NCBI RefSeq assembly: GCF_000264455.2
Contig: NC_017956.1
Location: 310,001-374,000 of the forward strand
Length of the DNA: 64,000 bases
Origin: Tistrella mobilis KA081020-065
GTDB taxonomy: Bacteria > Pseudomonadota > Alphaproteobacteria > Tistrellales > Tistrellaceae
Direction of reading: 5' to 3'
The notes beneath the pieces were generated by a model. The model did not search any database, had not been told where the DNA came from, and was given only the letters and a program-made list of their open reading frames with translations. Shown piece after piece: positions 7,585-43,165 of the stretch. Position 1 is the stretch's first letter; each line of letters opens with the position of its first letter. A program made the position numbers and the translations under genes.

Positions 7585-8724
7585 TCAGCCTCCCTGCGCG
7601 GCCCGATTGAGCCGATGCCCGTGAACGGACCGATAGCCGGGATAGCGTCCCAGCGTCTCGGCCGCATAGACGCCGCGGGTCAGGGCACGGGCGACGCAGT
7701 CGGCCGCGTGCATGCCGAGCCGCGCGACGTCCACCACCGGATTTGCAAGCGGTCGCTTGCCGGTGGCGAGGACGAAGATCGTATCACCGTCGAACGGCGT
7801 GTGCATCGGGCGCACCGCGCGGGCATAGCCATCCTGGGCCATGATCGCGATGCGCTCCGCCTCTCCGCGGGTCAGATCCGCATCGATGGCGACGATGCCG
7901 ATTGTGGTGTTACCGCCGGCGGTGGCTGCGACGGGGTCGCCGCCGTCCAGATCCGCCGGCATCTTCGTCACCCCGGCCGCCCTCTCCCCGGCAGCCGTGG
8001 TGTCCAGCACCTCTCCCGGCACGCCTGGGCGCCCTGGGGTGAAGGTGAAGTCGTGGGTGGAGGGCTTGGCCAGCTGATGCAGCGGCTGCCCGCCGAATTC
8101 GTCGTCGATCTCATGGGGCCAGGCCCAGAAGCAGGGCGTGCCCGGGATGACGGGGGTGCCGAACGCATTGCAGGCGACCAGCGCCCCCACCGTGTGGCCT
8201 TCGGCCGTCACGATCGATGCGGTACCGAGGCCACCCTTGTAGGCGCCCGCCTTGGCGCCGTAACCGGCACCGGCATTACCCTCGGCGACGGTCGTGCCAA
8301 GCGCATCCATCGCCTGGCCGGCCAGCGCCCGATAGGGCGGCTCCGCACCCCAGTTCTTGTCGCCGCCATTGACCAGGTCGAACAGGATGGCCGACGGCAC
8401 GATCGGGATGATCGCATCGCCGATCTTCACGCCCCGCCCCTCGGCCGCCAGCCGCGACATCACCGCCGAGGCGGCATCCAGCCCGTAGGCCGACCCACCC
8501 GAGAGGACGACCGCATGCACCTTCTGCACCATCGATGCCGAATTGAGGGCATCGGTTTCGCGGGTGCCGGGGCCGCCGCCGCGCACATCCACTGCCGCCA
8601 GCATCGGCTCGTCCGGCACGATCACGGTGACGCCGCTCCACAGCCGGTCGTCATGCGCCTGTCCGACCTTGATGCCGGGGACGTCGGTGATCGCGTTCAG
8701 CGGACCGGGGCGGAACTGGGTCAT
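7585..8724 (-). CDS. P1 family peptidase (DmpA-like aminopeptidase)
   Basis: This 379-residue enzyme belongs to the DmpA/BapA peptidase family, N-terminal-nucleophile-like hydrolases that self-cleave into two chains. The family N-terminus ITDVPGIKVGQA is at about residues 12-23, the glycine-rich VRGGGPGTRETD at about 48-59 and LSGGSAYGLDAA at about 74-85. The predicted self-cleavage site is GGNTTIGIVA, with Thr273 as nucleophile. Characterised relatives release D-amino acids or beta-amino acids from peptides. Being first in the peptide-importer operon suggests it hydrolyses the imported peptides in the cytoplasm; no signal peptide is visible. The start at 8724 is chosen because homology begins there. 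Confidence 0.88.
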   Translation of the reverse strand: MTQFRPGPLNAITDVPGIKVGQAHDDRLWSGVTVIVPDEPMLAAVDVRGGGPGTRETDALNSASMVQKVHAVVLSGGSAYGLDAASAVMSRLAAEGRGVKIGDAIIPIVPSAILFDLVNGGDKNWGAEPPYRALAGQAMDALGTTVAEGNAGAGYGAKAGAYKGGLGTASIVTAEGHTVGALVACNAFGTPVIPGTPCFWAWPHEIDDEFGGQPLHQLAKPSTHDFTFTPGRPGVPGEVLDTTAAGERAAGVTKMPADLDGGDPVAATAGGNTTIGIVAIDADLTRGEAERIAIMAQDGYARAVRPMHTPFDGDTIFVLATGKRPLANPVVDVARLGMHAADCVARALTRGVYAAETLGRYPGYRSVHGHRLNRAAQGG

Positions 8725-8857
8725 GTTTCGGGAAGCGCTCCTGAAAATCGAGAGGGCGGAACGGTTTCGGGACCGGCGGCGATGGCAAGTCCCGACATGT
8801 GAAGCCCGCCTGTCGGCAGGCTTCGTCCGATTGTTTCCCCCCTTCATCAAGTCGGGA

Positions 8858-8886
8858 AGCCTAGCGATACATTTTTTCCCGGTCAA
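8858..8886 (-). promoter_or_regulatory. Candidate sigma-70 promoter of the peptidase/peptide-importer operon
   Basis: On the minus strand TTGACC (8881-8886) is followed after 17 bp by TAGGCT (8858-8863). This lies in a locally AT-richer stretch about 130 bp upstream of the peptidase start. The leader then contains a 9-bp hairpin (8802-8823, loop GACA). The -10 is weak, so this is a candidate only. Confidence 0.45.
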
Positions 8887-8962
8887 CTCTTTGGAAAGAT
8901 TTGATCTTGTTTCTTCTCGTGGATGTTTCGTTTCTGATATTGTCTTGAGGATTTCTGGTGGC

Positions 8963-9943
8963 CTATCGTGCCGCGACATCATCGCCAGAGGCGCGGAACG
9001 TATCGGTGAGCAGCAGGTGCAGGGCACTGTGATCAAGCTCGCCGCGGCCCTGTTCGACCAGCCGGGCGAAGGCATCGCGAACCAGGGTCGAGGCCGGCAT
9101 GGTCAGGCCATTGGCATCCCCCAGCCGGGTGGCCTGCACCATGTCCTTCAGATGGATGCGGCACTTGCCGCCCGGGACCAGATTGCCCGCGACCATGCGT
9201 TCGCCGTGCTGACGCAGAATGGTGCCGTCGGCGAAGCCGCCGATCATCGCCTCGCGCACCCGGGCCGGATCGACGCCGGCTGCCTCGGCCAGTGCCAGGG
9301 CTTCGGCCACCGCCTGGATCACCACGCCGACCACCACCTGGTTCGCGGCCTTGGCGACCTGGCCTGCGCCAGGGCCGCCGATGCGGGTGATCCGGCTGCC
9401 CAGCACCTGCAGTACCGGCAGGGCCGCCTCGAAGGCCGCATCTTCCCCGCCGGCCATGATCGAGAGCGTCGCCGCTTCGGCGCCGCGGGTGCCGCCGGAA
9501 ACCGGGGCATCGATCAGGCTGGCGCCGCAACCTTCGGCCAGGCGGCGGCCGATATCGGGCGTCGCCAGCGGGTCGGTGGTGCCCATGTCGATCACCACCC
9601 GCGGTGCGGGATGGGCCGCCGTGATGCCGTCGGCGCCGAACAGCACGGCTTCGACCGCCGCGGTGTCGGTGACGCAGATAATGGCGATGTCGGCGCCGGC
9701 GGCCGCCTCGGCCGGGCTTGCGGCGGCACGGGCACCGGTTGCTGCCGAGACCTCATCCGCCGCGGCCGGGCTGCGGTTCCAGACACTGAGATCGGCGCCT
9801 GCTCGCGCCAGATTGATCGCCATCGGCCGCCCCATCAGTCCGAGACCGAGCATGGCGATCCGCCGGCCATCCAGTCGCGGGTGATCGGCGGTCCCGTCTC
9901 CTGACGGGGAGGGCGGGGCAAAGCGGTCGGGGGCGCTGGTCAT
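8963..9943 (-). CDS. NAD(P)-dependent oxidoreductase, 3-hydroxyisobutyrate dehydrogenase family
   Basis: This 326-residue protein is a beta-hydroxyacid dehydrogenase. It has the Rossmann motif MLGLGLMGRPMAINLARAG near residues 30-48, the substrate-binding signature DAPVSGGTRGAEAATLSIMAGG in the middle and the catalytic-lysine segment GPGAGQVAKAANQ. The family includes 3-hydroxyisobutyrate, tartronate-semialdehyde and glyoxylate/succinate-semialdehyde reductases; the substrate cannot be told from sequence here. A 25-residue N-terminal extension precedes the Rossmann fold if the ATG at 9943 is used. It is transcribed toward the peptide operon but separated from it by 238 bp, so it is probably a separate unit. 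Confidence 0.85.
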   Translation of the reverse strand: MTSAPDRFAPPSPSGDGTADHPRLDGRRIAMLGLGLMGRPMAINLARAGADLSVWNRSPAAADEVSAATGARAAASPAEAAAGADIAIICVTDTAAVEAVLFGADGITAAHPAPRVVIDMGTTDPLATPDIGRRLAEGCGASLIDAPVSGGTRGAEAATLSIMAGGEDAAFEAALPVLQVLGSRITRIGGPGAGQVAKAANQVVVGVVIQAVAEALALAEAAGVDPARVREAMIGGFADGTILRQHGERMVAGNLVPGGKCRIHLKDMVQATRLGDANGLTMPASTLVRDAFARLVEQGRGELDHSALHLLLTDTFRASGDDVAAR

Positions 9944-13602: not shown

Positions 13603-14313
13603 TCAGATCGGCGGCCGGCGCGGCCCCGACAGGCGGCGGTCCAGGAAGCGCAGGGTCACTTCCATGGCATAGCGGGCCTCTTCCGGTCGATAGTCCGGGC
13701 GGGCCTCGCAATTGAAGCCGTGGCCGGCCTGCGGGTGGACGTAGATCTCGGCACCGGGTGCCGCCACGCGCAGCTTATCGGCGGTGGGGCCCGCCGGAAT
13801 ATGACCGTCGCGCCCGCCCAGATGGACCAGAAGCGGCGCCACCGGCTTGATGCCCTCGTCCAGATATTTCGGCACCTGGCCGCCGTAATAGCTGACGGCT
13901 GCGTCGATCGACAGCTTTGCGGCGGCCAGATAGGCGAGGCTGCCGCCCCAGCAGAAGCCGACCACGCCCACGGGGAAGGCGGCGCCGTGGCGGGCACGCA
14001 GCCGATCCACCGCGGCGGCGACATAGGTCAGGGCCTCGTCGTCGGGCACCTGGCCCTTCAGCTCGATGCCGCGCTTCAGGTCTTCGGGGCCATAGCCGAG
14101 TTCGGTATCCGGCGCGACCCGGTCGAACAGAGCCGGTGCCACCACCTCATAGCCCGGCAGGGCAAGGCGATCGACCACGCCCCGGATATGGGCATTCACC
14201 CCGAAGATCTCCTGCAGGACCACCAGGCCGGCCCGCGCGGGCTGGCGGGGCGTGGCATGCCAGGCCGAGATCGACGTGCCGGTAGCGGCATCCAGACGGA
14301 TGAACTCACCCAT
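13603..14313 (-). CDS. Dienelactone hydrolase family protein
   Basis: This 236-residue alpha/beta hydrolase has the dienelactone-hydrolase layout: N-terminal VLQEIFGVNAHIRGVVDRLA, the nucleophile elbow GFCWGGSLAY with a catalytic Cys (about residue 124), an Asp in HLGGRDGHIP and a His in HPQAGHGFNCE near the C-terminus. The Cys-Asp-His triad is complete. Characterised members open the lactone in chloroaromatic degradation, but most genomic homologues have unknown substrates, and no aromatic-degradation genes are nearby. The start at 14313 matches the usual N-terminus. Confidence 0.88.
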   Translation of the reverse strand: MGEFIRLDAATGTSISAWHATPRQPARAGLVVLQEIFGVNAHIRGVVDRLALPGYEVVAPALFDRVAPDTELGYGPEDLKRGIELKGQVPDDEALTYVAAAVDRLRARHGAAFPVGVVGFCWGGSLAYLAAAKLSIDAAVSYYGGQVPKYLDEGIKPVAPLLVHLGGRDGHIPAGPTADKLRVAAPGAEIYVHPQAGHGFNCEARPDYRPEEARYAMEVTLRFLDRRLSGPRRPPI

Positions 14314-14610
14314 GTGCGAAACCTCGTGACGATGTTGCGGCAGGGCTCCGGGACGCTCCGGAGCCTCCTCTCAGATACGACATGATGTTGGGGAACGGAA
14401 GAGACGGGTATGCCGCAACCAGGATTGACACCGTCTGGTCGCATGACCGGCTGCCCCTCTGCCGTCATGATGCCTTGAGAGATCTTCGGAAGAAGACCAC
14501 CGCTTGCCGCAGAAGATCTGTACGGCCGGCGGTCGACGATGATGGATCGGACGGCACCCGTGGAGACCGGACCCTTTGAGAGGGGATCTCTTGGTCGGAG
14601 CACGGGACTT

Positions 14611-16329
14611 ATGGGTAGTCAGACGATGACGGCGGCCGCGCAATCGGGCGGCCGCCACGAACGGAGCATCGCCGAGGTCGCGGCCGAACTGCTGGGCTTC
14701 GCGCGGGCGATGGATGACGGCCGGCTGGACTACGACCGGCGGGCGGTCAGGCTGACCTTCGGCAGCGCCAATGGCGACGGGATGCTCGCCGTGATCGTGA
14801 TCCTGGCGGCGGTGTCCCTGGTGGCCGGCGTCGTCTCGCTGTTTCTGATCAACGATCTGGCGCTCCTTGGTCTTTCCCTGCCGGATTGGAGCTTCTTTGC
14901 CCTGGCGCTTGTCCTGCTCTGCCTGGCCCTCTGGGCGGCGCCGCGCTCGGGCACGCATTTCGATCTGCGGCAGCGGGCCGTGATCCATGGCGGGGCAAGC
15001 TTGCCTTTCGACCGGATCCTGCCCGCCCAGCTGGAGCTGACGCCCGATGACGACGGGGTGGCGCTCAGCCTGGAGCATCCGGATCTGAACCGGCGCCTGG
15101 CGCATTTCCCGGCAGCGAAGATGGAGGCGGCGCAGGCCGTCCGGGCGCGGCTGGTCGAGCTGCTGGAACGGCGGCTGCCTTTCACGCGGTCCGCAGCTTT
15201 CACGCGGCCTGCAGGCCCCGCCTCTGCACCCCGGCAGACCACCGGTGCCGGGACCGGCCTTTCCGCTGATCTTCCGAAAGCGCCGGGGCGTTTGACCCCG
15301 GTCCAGGGCTGGATCATCGGCGCCGGCGCGATCTTCGCCCGCGCCAACGGCCACCCGGTCGATCGGCTGGGAGAGGTGTCGGGGCCGCTCGGGGCGCTTG
15401 GCCGGCGCAAGGCCGTGGCGTTGCTGCGCGAGGGCTGGGGCATTTCGGGCGGCGAGGATGTCGACCGCGAAGTCATGTCCCTGATCACCCGGGGGCACCG
15501 CGAGGATTTCGGCTTCACCGCCCGTGTCGCAGAGCTGTCGGAGGGCGAGCGGGCACGCTATGGTCGGGCCCTCCACGCCCTCACCGACAGCGGGTTGGCG
15601 GGTGATCCCGCCGCCCGGCGGCGGGCGCTCGCCGACCTGATCGCCCTGCGCTATGGCCCCCAGGGCTTGCAGGTGATGGGCGGCGTGCTGCGCCGTGCTC
15701 CCGAGACCGACCCTGCCGTGGTCGAGCTGGCGGAGACCGCCATGCTGGGCCCGCTCTGAGATCCGGAGGTCGATGCGGCGGAGCTCGAACCCCATTGGGC
15801 GCGGGCACGCGAGATGGTCGGGGCGGAATTCGGCGACGAGGGGGTGGGTGCCTTCGACGCCTGGCGTGCGGCCTTCACGCGCGACGTGATCGAGGTTCCG
15901 GGGGCGCTCGAGCTCTATGTCCAACTCCGGATCTTCCTGCATCAGCTGGCCGATCCCGACTTCCCGGCCGAGGAGTTGGGGCGGCTGCGGCTCCTGGAGG
16001 CAGCCGGTCCCGGCGCCGTCACCCATGACCGGCATATGGCCTGGGACTTCGGCCGGGCATTGATGCTGATCCGCTGGGGCCACATGGCCGGCTGGATCGA
16101 TGCCGATGATGCCTGGATGCGGATGCTGCCGATCGCGCGCGAGATCCAGAGCGCCTATGGCTCGTGGACCGATATGGCGGCGGCCTATCTGGAGGGGCGG
16201 GCCTTGTGGTCGGGTGGTGCGGACGCCGATCAACCGGTCTTCGAGAAGGCGGCAGCCGGGCTCAACGCCGACGCCGACGGCCCCTGGAACCGATTGCCCT
16301 GGGATCTGCCGCTCGAGAAGGACTGGTGA
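14611..16329 (+). pseudogene. DUF1266 membrane protein interrupted by an in-frame TGA
   Basis: Two open segments, 14611-15756 and 15760-16329, are in the same frame and separated by one TGA at 15757-15759. Together they make one DUF1266 protein of about 572 codons. The N-terminal part has two membrane helices (about residues 60-80 and 90-110) and a PH-like region. The DUF1266 domain starts near VQGWIIGAGAIFARANG, includes LLREGWGIS and TRGHREDF before the stop, and continues after it with AWDFGRALMLIRWG, YGSWTDMAAAYLEGR and the C-terminal WNRLPWDLPLEKDW. A CGA-to-TGA transition would explain the break. Translation could restart at ATG 15814. It may be a recent nonsense mutation, a sequencing error or readthrough. 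DUF1266 has no established function. Confidence 0.75.
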
Positions 16330-16354
16330 CCGACCATTCCGTCATCGCTTATGT

Positions 16355-16388
16355 GAAACGCCCGGCATGACATCATGCCGGGCGTTTC
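16355..16388 (+). terminator. Bidirectional terminator between the DUF1266 gene and ychF
   Basis: A perfect 16-bp inverted repeat (GAAACGCCCGGCATGA and its complement, 2 bp apart) lies between two convergent genes. The arms end in GTTTC on one strand and GTTTCAC on the other, so it can act in both directions. Confidence 0.75.
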
Positions 16389-16421
16389 GTGTCAGGCGCG
16401 GTGGTCGGACGGGACGGGCCG

Positions 16422-17522
16422 TCAGACGTTGAACAGGAAGTGGAAGACGTCGCCGTCGCGGACCACGTATTCCTTGCCCTCCATGCGCAGCTTGCCGGCG
16501 GCGCGGGCCTCGCTTTCACCACCGCAGGTGATGTAGTCGTCGAAGGCGATGGTCTCGGCGCGGATGAAGCCGCGCTCGAAATCGGTGTGGATCACGCCGG
16601 CGGCCTGCGGGGCGGTGGCGCCCTTGCGGACGGTCCAGGCGCGGGCCTCCTTGGGGCCGACCGTGAAGAAGGTCAGCAGATCAAGCAGGCTGTATCCGGC
16701 GCGGATGACCCGGGTGAGGCCGGTTTCCTCAAGCCCCAGCGCCTCGAGGAAATCGCGCTTCTCTGCCTCGTCGGAGAGCATGGCGACCTCGCTCTCGATC
16801 TTGGCGGAGACCACCACGGCCGCGGCGCCCTCGGCCTCGGCGCGGGCGAAGACCCGGGCCGACAGCTCATTGCCCTCGGCGGCGGCGCTCTCGTCGACAT
16901 TGCAGACATAGAGCACCGGCTTGGCGGTCAGCAGCTGAAGCAGCTGGAAGGCACGGCGCTCCTCGGCGTCGATCTTCACGGTCCGGGCAGGGCGGCCATC
17001 CTGAAGAGCGGTCAGCACCCGGCCCATCAGCTCGATCTGGGCCTTGGCGTCCTTGTCGCCACCCTTGGCGCGCTTCTCGATGCCGGCCATGCGCTTCTCA
17101 AGGCTTTCGAGATCGGCCAGCATCAGCTCGGTCTCGATGGTCTCGGCATCGCGCAAGGGATCGACGCCACCCTCGACATGGGTGATGTCGTCATCCTCGA
17201 AGCAGCGCAGCACATGGGCGATGGCATCGACCTCGCGGATATGTGCCAGGAACTGGTTGCCCAGACCTTCCCCCCGGCTGGCGCCGCGCACCAGGCCTGC
17301 GATGTCGACGAAGTCGAGCTGGGTCGGGATGATCTGCTTCGAGCCGGCGATGGCGGCAAGCTTGTCGAGGCGCGCATCCGGCACCATCACCCGGCCGGAA
17401 TTCGGCTCGATGGTGCAGAACGGATAGTTCGCCGCTTCCGCTGCCGCGGTGCTGGTCAGCGCGTTGAACAGGGTCGACTTGCCGATATTCGGCATGCCGA
17501 CGATGCCGCATTTGAAGCCCAT
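16422..17522 (-). CDS. ychF: Redox-regulated ATPase YchF (Obg-related)
   Basis: YchF is a ribosome-associated P-loop NTPase of the Obg family that prefers ATP. The 366-residue protein has the G1 loop GMPNIGKST (residues 9-17), a switch region DFVDIAGLVRGASRGEG and, in place of the usual NKxD, the YchF-specific CNVDE that explains ATP preference. The C-terminal TGS domain ends with the typical GKEYVVRDGDVFHFLFNV. The start at 17522 is where homology begins. It lies 4 bp downstream of pth, a common arrangement, which suggests one translation-related operon rplY-pth-ychF. Confidence 0.97.
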   Translation of the reverse strand: MGFKCGIVGMPNIGKSTLFNALTSTAAAEAANYPFCTIEPNSGRVMVPDARLDKLAAIAGSKQIIPTQLDFVDIAGLVRGASRGEGLGNQFLAHIREVDAIAHVLRCFEDDDITHVEGGVDPLRDAETIETELMLADLESLEKRMAGIEKRAKGGDKDAKAQIELMGRVLTALQDGRPARTVKIDAEERRAFQLLQLLTAKPVLYVCNVDESAAAEGNELSARVFARAEAEGAAAVVVSAKIESEVAMLSDEAEKRDFLEALGLEETGLTRVIRAGYSLLDLLTFFTVGPKEARAWTVRKGATAPQAAGVIHTDFERGFIRAETIAFDDYITCGGESEARAAGKLRMEGKEYVVRDGDVFHFLFNV

Positions 17523-17526
17523 GGGA

Positions 17527-18177
17527 TTACTCCTCGCCGCCGGTCGCACCCGCGGGCGGGGCACCCGCGGCATCCGGCTTCGCCGGCTTTGCCGGCTTCA
17601 GCGGTTTCGGCGGCCGGACGGCACCCGCAACCTTGCTCATATAATCGCTCTCGCGGCCGGCCAGCAGCAGCGGCAGATGCACCGCCACCGCATCGGTCAG
17701 ATCGCGGAGCCAATCCTGTTCGGCCTTGGCGAAATCGCCCAGCACCCAGCCATGGACCCGGGCCTTGTCGCCCGGATGGCCGATGCCCAGCCGCACGCGC
17801 ACGAAATCGGCCCCCATATGGCGGGTGATGTCGCGCAGGCCGTTATGGCCGGCATGGCCGCCGCCGGTCTTCACCCGCATTTTCGAGGGGGCGAGGTCAA
17901 GCTCGTCGTGGAACACGACGATGCGGCCCGGCTCGATCTTGTGGAAGCGGGCGGCCTCGGCGACCGAACGGCCGCTCTCGTTCATGTAGGTGAGGGGCTT
18001 GAGCGCGATCGCGCGCTCGGGGCCGATGCGGCCTTCGGAAATCTCGCCCTGGAACTTGCGGCGCCAGGGGGAGAAGCCATGGCGGCGGACGATTTCGTCC
18101 ACCGCCATGAAGCCGATATTGTGGCGATTGCCGGCGTATTCGGGGCCGGGATTGCCCAGACCGACCAGCAACCACAT
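17527..18177 (-). CDS. pth: Peptidyl-tRNA hydrolase
   Basis: Pth releases peptides from peptidyl-tRNA that has dropped off ribosomes. The 216-residue protein has the N-terminal signature [20 protein letters not shown] with the conserved Asn and catalytic His, then YMNESG, the FHDELDL Asp segment and GHNGLRDI with the substrate-binding Asn. The family core is about 190 residues; here it is followed by a lysine/proline/alanine-rich tail ([17 protein letters not shown]), typical of alphaproteobacterial Pth. It sits 5 bp downstream of rplY. Confidence 0.97.
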
Positions 18178-31771: not shown

Positions 31772-33175
31772 ATGACGATCAAGAGCCTCGGCGACGCCTT
31801 CGATCCGGATGTCGACCTCGGCCATGGCCGGCAGTGCGGCTGCGCCGCCTGCGCCACGACCTCTGCCCGGCCGACCTCCGCTCAATCTGGCCCGGCGCTG
31901 CCCGTGGGCGAAGAGGCGCTGGTCGATCGGGTGGTCGAGAATGCGGTCGTCCGCTCCATGTTCGGCGGCAACGAGATTGCCCGGCGGTCGTTTCTGAAGA
32001 CCGTGGGGGCGGGGGCCTTTGCGGCAGCGCTGGCCTCGGTTCTGCCGCTCGACCGGGTGAAGGCGGCGGTCAAGGACGGCATGACCGGCGGTGGTCCGCT
32101 CGAGAAGACGAAGCTCAACATCGGCTTCGTCCCGATCACCTGCGCCACCCCGATCATCATGGCCCATCCCATGGGCTTCTATGAACGCCGCGGCCTGGAT
32201 GTGCAGGTGATCAAGACCGCCGGCTGGGCGGTGGCGCGCGACAAGTCGCTCAACAAGGAATACGACGCCTCGCACATGCTGACGCCGATGCCGCTGGCGA
32301 TCACCATGGGGGCGGGCTCGACCGCTCAGCCCTTCCTGATGCCGGCGGTGGAGAACATCAACGGCCAGGCGATCGTGCTGCATGTCGATCACAAGGACAA
32401 GCGCGACCCCAGGGACTGGAAGGGTTTCCGCTTCGGCGTTCCCTTCGAATACTCGATGCACAATTTCCTGCTGCGCTATTACGTCGCCGAGCACGGGCTC
32501 GACCCCGACAAGGACATCCAGATCCGGGTCGTGCCGCCGCCGGAGATGGTCGCCAATCTGCGCGCCGGAAATCTGGACGGCTACCTGTCGCCGGATCCGT
32601 TCAACCAGCGTGCCGTCTGGGAAAAGGTCGGCTTCATCCATCTGCTGACCAAGGACATCTGGGAGGGGCATCCCTGCTGCGCCTTCGCCTGTTCCAAGGC
32701 CTTCGCCGAAGAGATGCCGAACACCTATGGCGCCCTGGTCATGGCCCTGCTGGAGGCGACCTCCTATGCCGCCGATCCGGCCAATCGCAAGGAGATCTCG
32801 GCCGCGATCGCGCCCGCCAATTATCTGAACCAGCCTGTGCCGGTGATCGAGCAAGTGCTCACCGGCCGCTTCGCCGACGGGCTGGGCCAGGTGCAGGACG
32901 TGCCCGACCGGATCGATTTCGATCCCTTCCCCTGGCATTCGATGGGGGTATGGATCCTGACCCAGATGAAGCGCTGGGGCTACATTTCGGGCGAGATCGA
33001 CTATCGCGGCATCGCCGAACAGGTCTATCTCGCCGCCGAAACCGGTGCCTGGATGAAGGAGCTGGGCCTGACCCCGCCCGAGGTGACTTACGAGCCCCAC
33101 ACCATCATGGGCAAGACCTTCGATCCGGCGGATCCCGAAGGCTATCTCGCCTCCTTCGCCATCCGGCGCAGCTGA
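31772..33175 (+). CDS. cynA: CynA/NrtA-type ABC transporter substrate-binding protein (cyanate/nitrate family)
   Basis: This 467-residue receptor belongs to the NrtA/CmpA/CynA family that binds nitrate, bicarbonate or cyanate. A twin-arginine signal, RRSFLKTVGAGAFAA, begins at residue 71; mature protein starts about residue 98, with KLNIGFVPITCATPIIMA following. A 70-residue acidic, soluble-looking N-region with CGCAAC (Cys22, 24, 27) precedes the Tat motif. The start at 31772 is supported by AGGGAG 7 bp upstream, and no internal ATG near the Tat motif has one. The neighbouring cyanase makes cyanate the likeliest ligand; nitrate or bicarbonate remain possible. Confidence 0.82.
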   Translation: MTIKSLGDAFDPDVDLGHGRQCGCAACATTSARPTSAQSGPALPVGEEALVDRVVENAVVRSMFGGNEIARRSFLKTVGAGAFAAALASVLPLDRVKAAVKDGMTGGGPLEKTKLNIGFVPITCATPIIMAHPMGFYERRGLDVQVIKTAGWAVARDKSLNKEYDASHMLTPMPLAITMGAGSTAQPFLMPAVENINGQAIVLHVDHKDKRDPRDWKGFRFGVPFEYSMHNFLLRYYVAEHGLDPDKDIQIRVVPPPEMVANLRAGNLDGYLSPDPFNQRAVWEKVGFIHLLTKDIWEGHPCCAFACSKAFAEEMPNTYGALVMALLEATSYAADPANRKEISAAIAPANYLNQPVPVIEQVLTGRFADGLGQVQDVPDRIDFDPFPWHSMGVWILTQMKRWGYISGEIDYRGIAEQVYLAAETGAWMKELGLTPPEVTYEPHTIMGKTFDPADPEGYLASFAIRRS

Positions 33176-33199
33176 GCCTGCCACTCTGGGAGACCCGGA

Positions 33200-34030
33200 A
33201 TGATGCCGTCGCTCCGCATCCGTGCCGCGATCCTGTCGGTGGCGGTGCTGGCTCTGCTGCTGGGGGTCTGGGAACTCTCCAGTGCAGCCCCGGCCGCTTC
33301 GGCCGCGCAGGATGAATATGCCCGTCTGATGGGCGGTGCCGACACCCAGGCCCGTCTGCCGGCCCCCTCCGACATTCTGACGCGCGCCTGGGAAGAGATA
33401 TCGGATCCCTTCTACGACGCCGGCCCCAACGACAAGGGGATCGGTATCCAGATCGGCTATTCGCTCTACCGGGTGGCGGCGGGCTATCTGGCCGCGGCCG
33501 CCATCGCCCTGCCGCTCGGCTTCCTGATCGGCATGTCGCCGCTGGCCTACCGGGCGCTCGACCCGTTCATCCAGGTGCTGCGGCCGATCTCGCCACTCGC
33601 CTGGATGCCGCTCGCGCTGTTCGTGATCAAGGACAGCCAGATGTCGGCGATCTTCGTGATCTTCATCTGCTCGATCTGGCCGATGTTGCTCAATACCGCC
33701 TTCGGTGTCGCCAATGTCCGGCGGGATTGGGTGAATGTCGCCCGCACCCACGAACTCGGGCCGGTCTCGACCGCCCTCAGGGTCATCCTGCCGGCCGCTG
33801 CGCCCACCATCGTGACGGGGATGCGGATCTCGATCGGCATCGCCTGGCTGGTCATCGTGGCGGCAGAGATGCTCGTGGGCGGCACCGGCATCGGCTACTA
33901 CGTCTGGAACGAGTGGAACAATCTCGATCTCACCAGCGTGGTGTTCTCCATCCTGATGATCGGTCTGGTCGGTATGGCGCTGGATGCGCTGCTCGGCGCG
34001 CTCGCCCGCGCCGTGGCCTATGCCGATTGA
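33200..34030 (+). CDS. cynB: CynB/NrtB-type ABC transporter permease
   Basis: This 276-residue BPD-type permease has an N-terminal helix, a long periplasmic segment to about residue 85, and five further helices. The family segments PLGFLIGMSPLAYRALDPFIQVLRPISPLAWMPLALF and the coupling loop WVNVARTHELGPVSTALRVILPAA are typical of NrtB/CynB/TauC-type permeases. GGGAGACC lies upstream of the double-ATG start. It follows the binding-protein gene by 24 bp and precedes the ATPase gene by 18 bp. Confidence 0.85.
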   Translation: MMPSLRIRAAILSVAVLALLLGVWELSSAAPAASAAQDEYARLMGGADTQARLPAPSDILTRAWEEISDPFYDAGPNDKGIGIQIGYSLYRVAAGYLAAAAIALPLGFLIGMSPLAYRALDPFIQVLRPISPLAWMPLALFVIKDSQMSAIFVIFICSIWPMLLNTAFGVANVRRDWVNVARTHELGPVSTALRVILPAAAPTIVTGMRISIGIAWLVIVAAEMLVGGTGIGYYVWNEWNNLDLTSVVFSILMIGLVGMALDALLGALARAVAYAD

Positions 34031-42294: not shown

Positions 42295-42300
42295 GCAGGG

Positions 42301-42624
42301 TCAGCCGGGGCTGATATCTCCCAGTCCCTGCAGGCGCAAAGGCGGCTGATCGGGCAGGCGGACGGTCAGCTCCAGTTCGCCCCCGATTGCTTCGATATAG
42401 TTGCGAAGGGTCGAGAGGTACATGTCTGCCTGCCTCTCGATCCGCGAGACCGATGGCTGGCGGATGTGAAGGGCCGCCGCGACATCCGCCTGGGCTTTGC
42501 CCGCGATCTGACGGAGGGCGCGGAGGCTCTCGACCTCGCCCTTCATCTCCTGAAAACCGGCATCAACCTTTGCCTGATCCTCTGGAGGGAGTGCGGCCAT
42601 CATGTCTTCAAGGGTGCGTGCCAT
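42301..42624 (-). CDS. XRE-family antitoxin (HigA-type)
   Basis: This 107-residue DNA-binding antitoxin has an N-terminal dimerisation segment (ARTLEDMMAALPPEDQAKVDAG) and an HTH_XRE domain at about residues 35-90 (AGKAQADVAAALHIRQPSVSRIERQADMYLSTLRNYIEAIGGELEL). That layout, with the domain late and a short basic tail, is typical of antitoxins paired with Gp49-like toxins. The start is placed at 42624, 4 bp after the toxin stop. It would neutralise the toxin and repress the pair. Confidence 0.88.
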   Translation of the reverse strand: MARTLEDMMAALPPEDQAKVDAGFQEMKGEVESLRALRQIAGKAQADVAAALHIRQPSVSRIERQADMYLSTLRNYIEAIGGELELTVRLPDQPPLRLQGLGDISPG

Positions 42625-42628
42625 GGCA

Positions 42629-42988
42629 TCATTCCTGAAGTGATGTTCGTGCAAGGTGATCGGTGAAACGTGCATCGGCGATGGTGATGAGGCGGGTGTA
42701 AAAACGTTTCTGGCTCTTTCCGGCCTTGTTGCCGGCAATCAGCAAGACAGCCTGTCGTCGGGGATCGAAGGCAAAGGCGATACGCCATGCGCCATCAGTC
42801 GATCTCAGGCGTAACTCCTTCATATTGGGGAAGGCCGATCCCCGGAGCGTATCGACATAGGGGCGTCCCAGGCCCGGTCCGTATTCCGACAGCAGTCGTG
42901 CTCCCGACAGTATTGCCAGCCGCAGGTCGTGCGGCAGCATCTCGTATTCTTCCACGAAGTCGTCATCGAAGATCACCTGCCACGGCAT
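42629..42988 (-). CDS. RelE/HigB-type toxin (Gp49-like family)
   Basis: This 119-residue protein has the Gp49-like/RelE-fold signature: WQVIFDDDFVEEYEMLPHDLRLAIL, GPGLGRPYVDTLRGSAFPNMKELRL, DGAWRIAFAFDPRRQAVLLIAG and KAGKSQKRFYTRLI, then ADARFTDHL. Members are ribosome-dependent mRNA interferases; the catalytic residues are in the basic C-terminal half. The ATG at 42988 starts the full-length domain but lies only 3 bp below a perfect TATAAT, so the message is predicted to have almost no 5' leader. The toxin precedes the antitoxin gene, the HigBA order. Confidence 0.88.
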   Translation of the reverse strand: MPWQVIFDDDFVEEYEMLPHDLRLAILSGARLLSEYGPGLGRPYVDTLRGSAFPNMKELRLRSTDGAWRIAFAFDPRRQAVLLIAGNKAGKSQKRFYTRLITIADARFTDHLARTSLQE

Positions 42989-42991
42989 GAA

Positions 42992-43018
42992 ATTATAGCC
43001 TCCAGGCTATGTTTTCAA
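42992..43018 (-). promoter_or_regulatory. Toxin-antitoxin promoter with overlapping palindromic operator
   Basis: On the minus strand TTGAAA (43013-43018) and the perfect TATAAT (42992-42997) are 15 bp apart, shorter than the usual 17. A perfect palindrome ATAGCCT-CC-AGGCTAT (42995-43010) covers the -10 and spacer, where a bound antitoxin would block RNA polymerase. Two more palindromes, CATGCC-TTCC-GGCATG (43037-43052) and TCATGCATGA (43053-43062), lie upstream. Confidence 0.75.
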
Positions 43019-43124
43019 GATGCACAGGCTTGGCATCATGCCTTCCGGCATGTCATGCATGAAGATGCTTAAGTAGAAGCTCCGTCCGAATTTCTCTTGT
43101 GAATTGAGGGCGCTCGGACAGGTT

Positions 43125-43165
43125 GAAAGACAAAGGGCGGGCCTCCGTGGAGGCCCGCCCTTCCG
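43125..43165 (-). terminator. Intrinsic terminator of cobS-cobT
   Basis: A perfect 14-bp inverted repeat (AAGGGCGGGCCTCC with its complement, 2 bp apart) lies 26 bp after the cobT stop and is followed on the minus strand by TTTGTCTTTC. Confidence 0.8.

Follow-up and report, generated by a model that had tools for sequence, protein, structure and literature searches.

The window, a stretch of 64,000 nucleotides from Tistrella mobilis KA081020-065, carries on its plus strand a gene for a protein with a DUF1266 domain (PF06889), the reading frame of which is divided in the raw sequence by a single in-frame TGA at 15757–15759. Two other genomes of the genus were available for comparison, one of the same species (G031, with about 97% identity across the window) and one of the same genus (G001, about 92% identical). 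The upstream part of the gene runs from 14611 to 15759 and comprises 382 codons when counted from the ATG at 14611, or 406 from an ATG at 14539. The former appears from the sequence to be the more likely start codon; it is present in all three genomes and has a GGAG about 10 nucleotides on its 5′ side, and position 14539 holds no ATG in G031. The downstream part (15760–16329, plus strand) adds 189 codons that are open in the same frame up to the normal stop, a TGA at 16327–16329. A 616-codon frame listed without internal stops for the window's genome was counted through the premature TGA (426 + 1 + 189). On the 3′ side lies a convergent neighbour, the GTPase gene ychF (16422–17573, minus strand), identified by a YchF-GTPase_C match of 133 bits in Pfam.

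The product encoded from ATG 14611 up to the premature stop, 382 residues in length, would contain a hydrophobic pair and the initial portion of the DUF1266 domain and would lack its most conserved part. The two hydrophobic stretches, located 5′ of the DUF1266 region at 14758–14952 on the plus strand, reach 19-residue Kyte–Doolittle means of 2.9 and 2.1 and probably form a transmembrane pair. The N-terminal part of the domain (15424–15558, plus strand), which includes the WGI...GH region and aligns with homologues, corresponds to profile positions 2–47 of PF06889 and to residues 296–340 numbered from ATG 14539. The conserved core of the domain (AWD..R, GW, SW and GR..W in the alignments) is held by the downstream part. 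Between the two conserved parts, the gene shows a long insertion relative to the aligned homologues, at 15559–16026.

When the frame is read through the TGA, PF06889 matches it like a member of the family, in two stretches with a score of 105.6 bits (cut-off 27), which bears out the original prediction that DUF1266 sequence lies on both sides of a single stop between two segments of the same frame. Taken alone, the downstream part reaches 89.7 bits and exceeds the same cut-off of 27, and the upstream part, with 14.2 bits, stays under it. As the TGA is situated between the two matched stretches, it falls inside the DUF1266 domain. The domain is contained in one uninterrupted frame in G031 and G001 and not in the window's genome. 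The openness of the frame is by itself weak evidence for a gene, because long open frames come cheaply in GC-rich DNA, as exemplified by an antisense frame at 14371–16233 that stays open for 620 codons over the same place. It is homology, rather than openness, that joins the two halves into one gene. Modelled by AlphaFold with the TGA read as tryptophan, the DUF1266 region is all-helical, with a mean pLDDT of 60 that is too low to support a fold search or to place the tryptophan. Solved structures gave no sequence match to the profile of one of our homologue alignments (A2), and a search of defence families returned only weak DrmD matches (E values of 0.001 to 0.008) at residues 162–216, which are taken as chance.

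Both congeneric genomes carry the DUF1266 gene in the same place with an uninterrupted frame, which in G031 extends over the same length. The comparison of the codon in related strains, proposed with the original prediction, shows TGG, encoding tryptophan, opposite 15757–15759 in both; each genome thus supplies the intact orthologue, carrying a sense codon at this position, that is looked for in a nonsense pseudogene. The case in which the two halves are always separate genes, also raised at that stage, is false in both. Tryptophan is likewise aligned with the premature TGA in all three other sequences of alignment A2, from Xylophilus, Microvirga and Croceibacterium, and in a larger alignment of 11 sequences (A1) the position is matched by tryptophan in some homologues and by another residue or a gap in the rest. 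The change of CGA to TGA that had been put forward as the simplest route does not hold, given TGG in both relatives and tryptophan at the aligned position in the three other genera. Within the class, DUF1266 was detected in 3 of the 289 genomes searched, all from the window's genus, and a wider search of the phylum found it in 20 of 398 genomes. Homologues also emerged in Microvirga and Croceibacterium from a separate search; because we take these genera to belong to the same class, the sample of 289 genomes understates the distribution of the family. A search of genome contigs, which may exclude records close to the window's genome, found no relative of the downstream protein.

The ATG at 15814–15816, the first in frame after the stop, is part of the unbroken frame in both relatives and is probably a plain internal methionine codon. 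The codons between the stop and this ATG are conserved in both relatives, in keeping with the earlier view that they are coding. A 171-codon frame does begin at ATG 15814, and one could imagine translation restarting there so that the halves work as two genes yielding two polypeptides. Such an arrangement is highly improbable: both relatives read straight through the ATG, no clear ribosome-binding site precedes it, and the TGA interrupts the DUF1266 domain itself. A consensus scan of 14300–17700 revealed no promoter or terminator between the halves; its one terminator-like match, at 14826, is upstream of the stop, with 1.5 matches expected by chance.

Comparison with G031 yields a dN/dS of 0.09 for the downstream part (41.5 synonymous and 15.5 non-synonymous changes in 189 codons) and 0.16 for the upstream part. 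Changes found only in the window's strain amount to 20 synonymous and 6 non-synonymous ones downstream, all 6 of the latter in the last 63 codons. The downstream part therefore shows neither decay nor a relaxation of selection since the break, and beyond the stop itself the gene bears no signature of lost function. From this it follows that the break is either young or an artefact, which upholds the original prediction of an undecayed downstream half and, if the break is real, of a recent inactivation. An absence of decay is expected of a very young break, but equally of an error or of read-through, and for this reason we call the gene primarily a nonsense allele and infer that it is a pseudogene.

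TGA is an ordinary stop codon in this DNA: of 63 candidate genes in the window, a codon-position filter removed 7, and TGA ends 51 of the 56 that were counted. ARAGORN reads a tRNA at 46 of the 47 matches to the tRNA family (RF00005) in the genome, among them a single tRNA-Trp, with anticodon CCA, and none with anticodon UCA. Reassignment of UGA to tryptophan (code 4) was rejected on the grounds that TGA serves as a stop in those 51 of 56 genes and that the only tRNA-Trp found is CCA. The one match not read as a tRNA by ARAGORN (L104, C1:1527070–1527167) is a weak 98-base match of 32.1 bits, and this last match is best fitted by the general tRNA family. Insertion of selenocysteine, suggested at first sight by an in-frame TGA within a conserved protein, is effectively refuted: the aligned residue in relatives and homologues is tryptophan and not cysteine, no tRNA-Sec occurs among the 47 places examined, and no SelB scores above the cut-off. 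The best matches to the SelB profile, taken to be elongation factor Tu, attain 191.7 bits, short of the cut-off of 242, and cover only profile positions 1–264 of 581.

UGA is the leakiest of the stop codons, and near-cognate tRNA-Trp would insert tryptophan at it. Functional read-through of this kind would restore exactly the ancestral residue, so that a full-length protein would still be made, and it would agree with the conservation of the downstream half. We nevertheless regard it as very unlikely. The stop is absent from both relatives, which argues against a maintained signal, the only tRNA-Trp found has the CCA anticodon and TGA is the normal stop of 51 of the 56 genes counted, the predicted RNA fold at the stop is not unusual (z = +1.06), and Rfam gives no match at 14300–17700. 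Read-through, as proposed in the original prediction, meets with no UGA-decoding machinery above cut-off.

The premature stop is embedded in a tract of about 1.86 kb (15421–17276) in which divergence specific to the window's strain is raised, and which includes the 3′ parts of both the DUF1266 gene and ychF. Of the 1845 sites of the tract, 132 carry a change unique to the window's genome, compared with 753 of 61,114 sites elsewhere in the window; the best-segment score of the tract is 138, and 200 shuffles reach at most 17.5. Divergence of the DUF1266 gene from G031 is about three times higher downstream of the stop than upstream, owing to this clustering at 15421–17276. In the bins from 16500 to 17249, which belong to the ychF part, the window's genome differs by 10–13% from both relatives and these differ by 2–4% from each other, identifying the window's genome as the outlier there. 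From about 15421 to 16250, G031 has changes of its own too, so that the left edge of the tract is less certain than the right. The ychF gene as a whole shows 100 differences to G031. It is noteworthy that about 19 non-synonymous changes in its 383 codons are confined to the window's strain, as against 0 on the G031 side, which is unusual for a conserved GTPase.

The simplest reading of the clustering, on which this suggestion is based, is that the tract came from an unsampled relative and was imported by homologous recombination. A search of 385 genomes of the class with the 16330–17276 part as query revealed no donor, the best match outside the genus being 75%. Gene conversion from a second copy was rejected for the DUF1266 part of the tract, as 15403–16330 has no second copy in the genome. 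The TGA may have arrived with the tract or have arisen afterwards.

A different explanation of the TGA is a sequencing or assembly error, in which case the strain would truly have the tryptophan codon and an intact gene. The base at 15757–15759 is known from the assembled sequence alone, and a lone substitution within an otherwise healthy frame, followed by a downstream half without decay, is what such an error would look like. Gene calls from the three genomes (60, 69 and 68, those of the relatives extending past the window) were compared for breakage, which was scored where the longest stretch of a gene left open in another genome fell below 85%, places with less than 60% coverage being skipped. 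The DUF1266 gene is the only one broken in the window's genome alone in this comparison, which detects frameshifts and large truncations and misses small truncations and silent errors. As far as a test blind to silent errors can tell, the assembly thus looks clean. Moreover, the odd base is not isolated, since the tract contains 131 further strain-only changes, mostly synonymous in its coding parts. On balance, an error is unlikely.

The same comparison of gene calls brought out a few differences outside the DUF1266 gene. At 7585–9075, a 496-codon gene is intact in the window and in G031. The copy in G001, shorter by one base, stays open for at most 406 codons, which from the sequences is a frameshift or an error in G001. 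A 359-codon call on contig C9 of G031, matching window 32950–34030, is one base off in length from its counterparts in the window and G001, whose mutual agreement contradicts it; this difference is likewise read as a frameshift or an error in G031. Also flagged were two G001 genes that lie beyond the window and differ in G031. Separately, a segment of about 0.83 kb at 42295–43125, single copy in the genome, is absent from both relatives. Its minus strand carries a gene for a Gp49-like protein (PF05973), overlapped by one for a helix-turn-helix protein (HTH_37), a combination that we take to be a toxin–antitoxin system of the HigB/HigA kind, and the segment looks like such a pair inserted in the window's strain. 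No long terminal repeats were found at 42295–43125.

With recoding, separate genes and a CGA origin set aside, the evidence converges on a strain-specific nonsense change at a conserved tryptophan. The locus is very probably a young nonsense allele, and hence a pseudogene, of a single DUF1266 gene, produced by an ordinary change restricted to this strain. Among the possibilities listed in the original prediction, the pseudogene is the one we retain, with an error kept as the unlikely case described above, and restart and read-through have received no specific support. According to the nonsense-allele model, the TGG tryptophan codon would be the ancestral state that has become TGA in the window's genome, and an unsampled relative would have supplied the stretch of about 1.86 kb through homologous recombination. 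Translation would stop after 382 residues, leaving a presumptive membrane-anchored stub without the conserved DUF1266 core, and the normal function of the protein would probably be lost. Traces of full-length protein could still arise if tRNA-Trp misreads UGA at a basal level. It is a long shot that the allele is still live, with tRNA-Trp reading UGA often enough for a low level of full-length DUF1266 protein, having been imported from a lineage that already tolerated the UGA.

For annotation, the nonsense-allele reading means that the gene is interrupted in the window's strain and intact in the relatives; the tryptophan marks a conserved position within this part of the DUF1266 family. The tract would represent a small and well-bounded case of homologous exchange, its partner an unsampled relative, in which part of a conserved housekeeping gene, ychF, was altered as well. 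No new mechanism is required.

Apart from PF06889, the frame read through the stop weakly matches NCBIfam PRK11380, which we take to be E. coli YnjI, at residues 501–559 with 18.4 bits, far under the cut-off of 386. YnjI is named as a DUF1266 protein in a passage of a published article (PMC10044804), and none of the literature passages seen to name DUF1266 tests its function. In contrast to DUF1266 proteins such as YnjI, those of the window's lineage have the two halves of the domain set apart by a long insertion and carry an N-terminal hydrophobic pair, and in the window the domain is cut by a stop. The gene resembles ordinary bacterial pseudogenes with a single nonsense mutation in having one premature stop, intact relatives and no further decay. 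It differs from them in that the stop is situated within a tract that looks imported.
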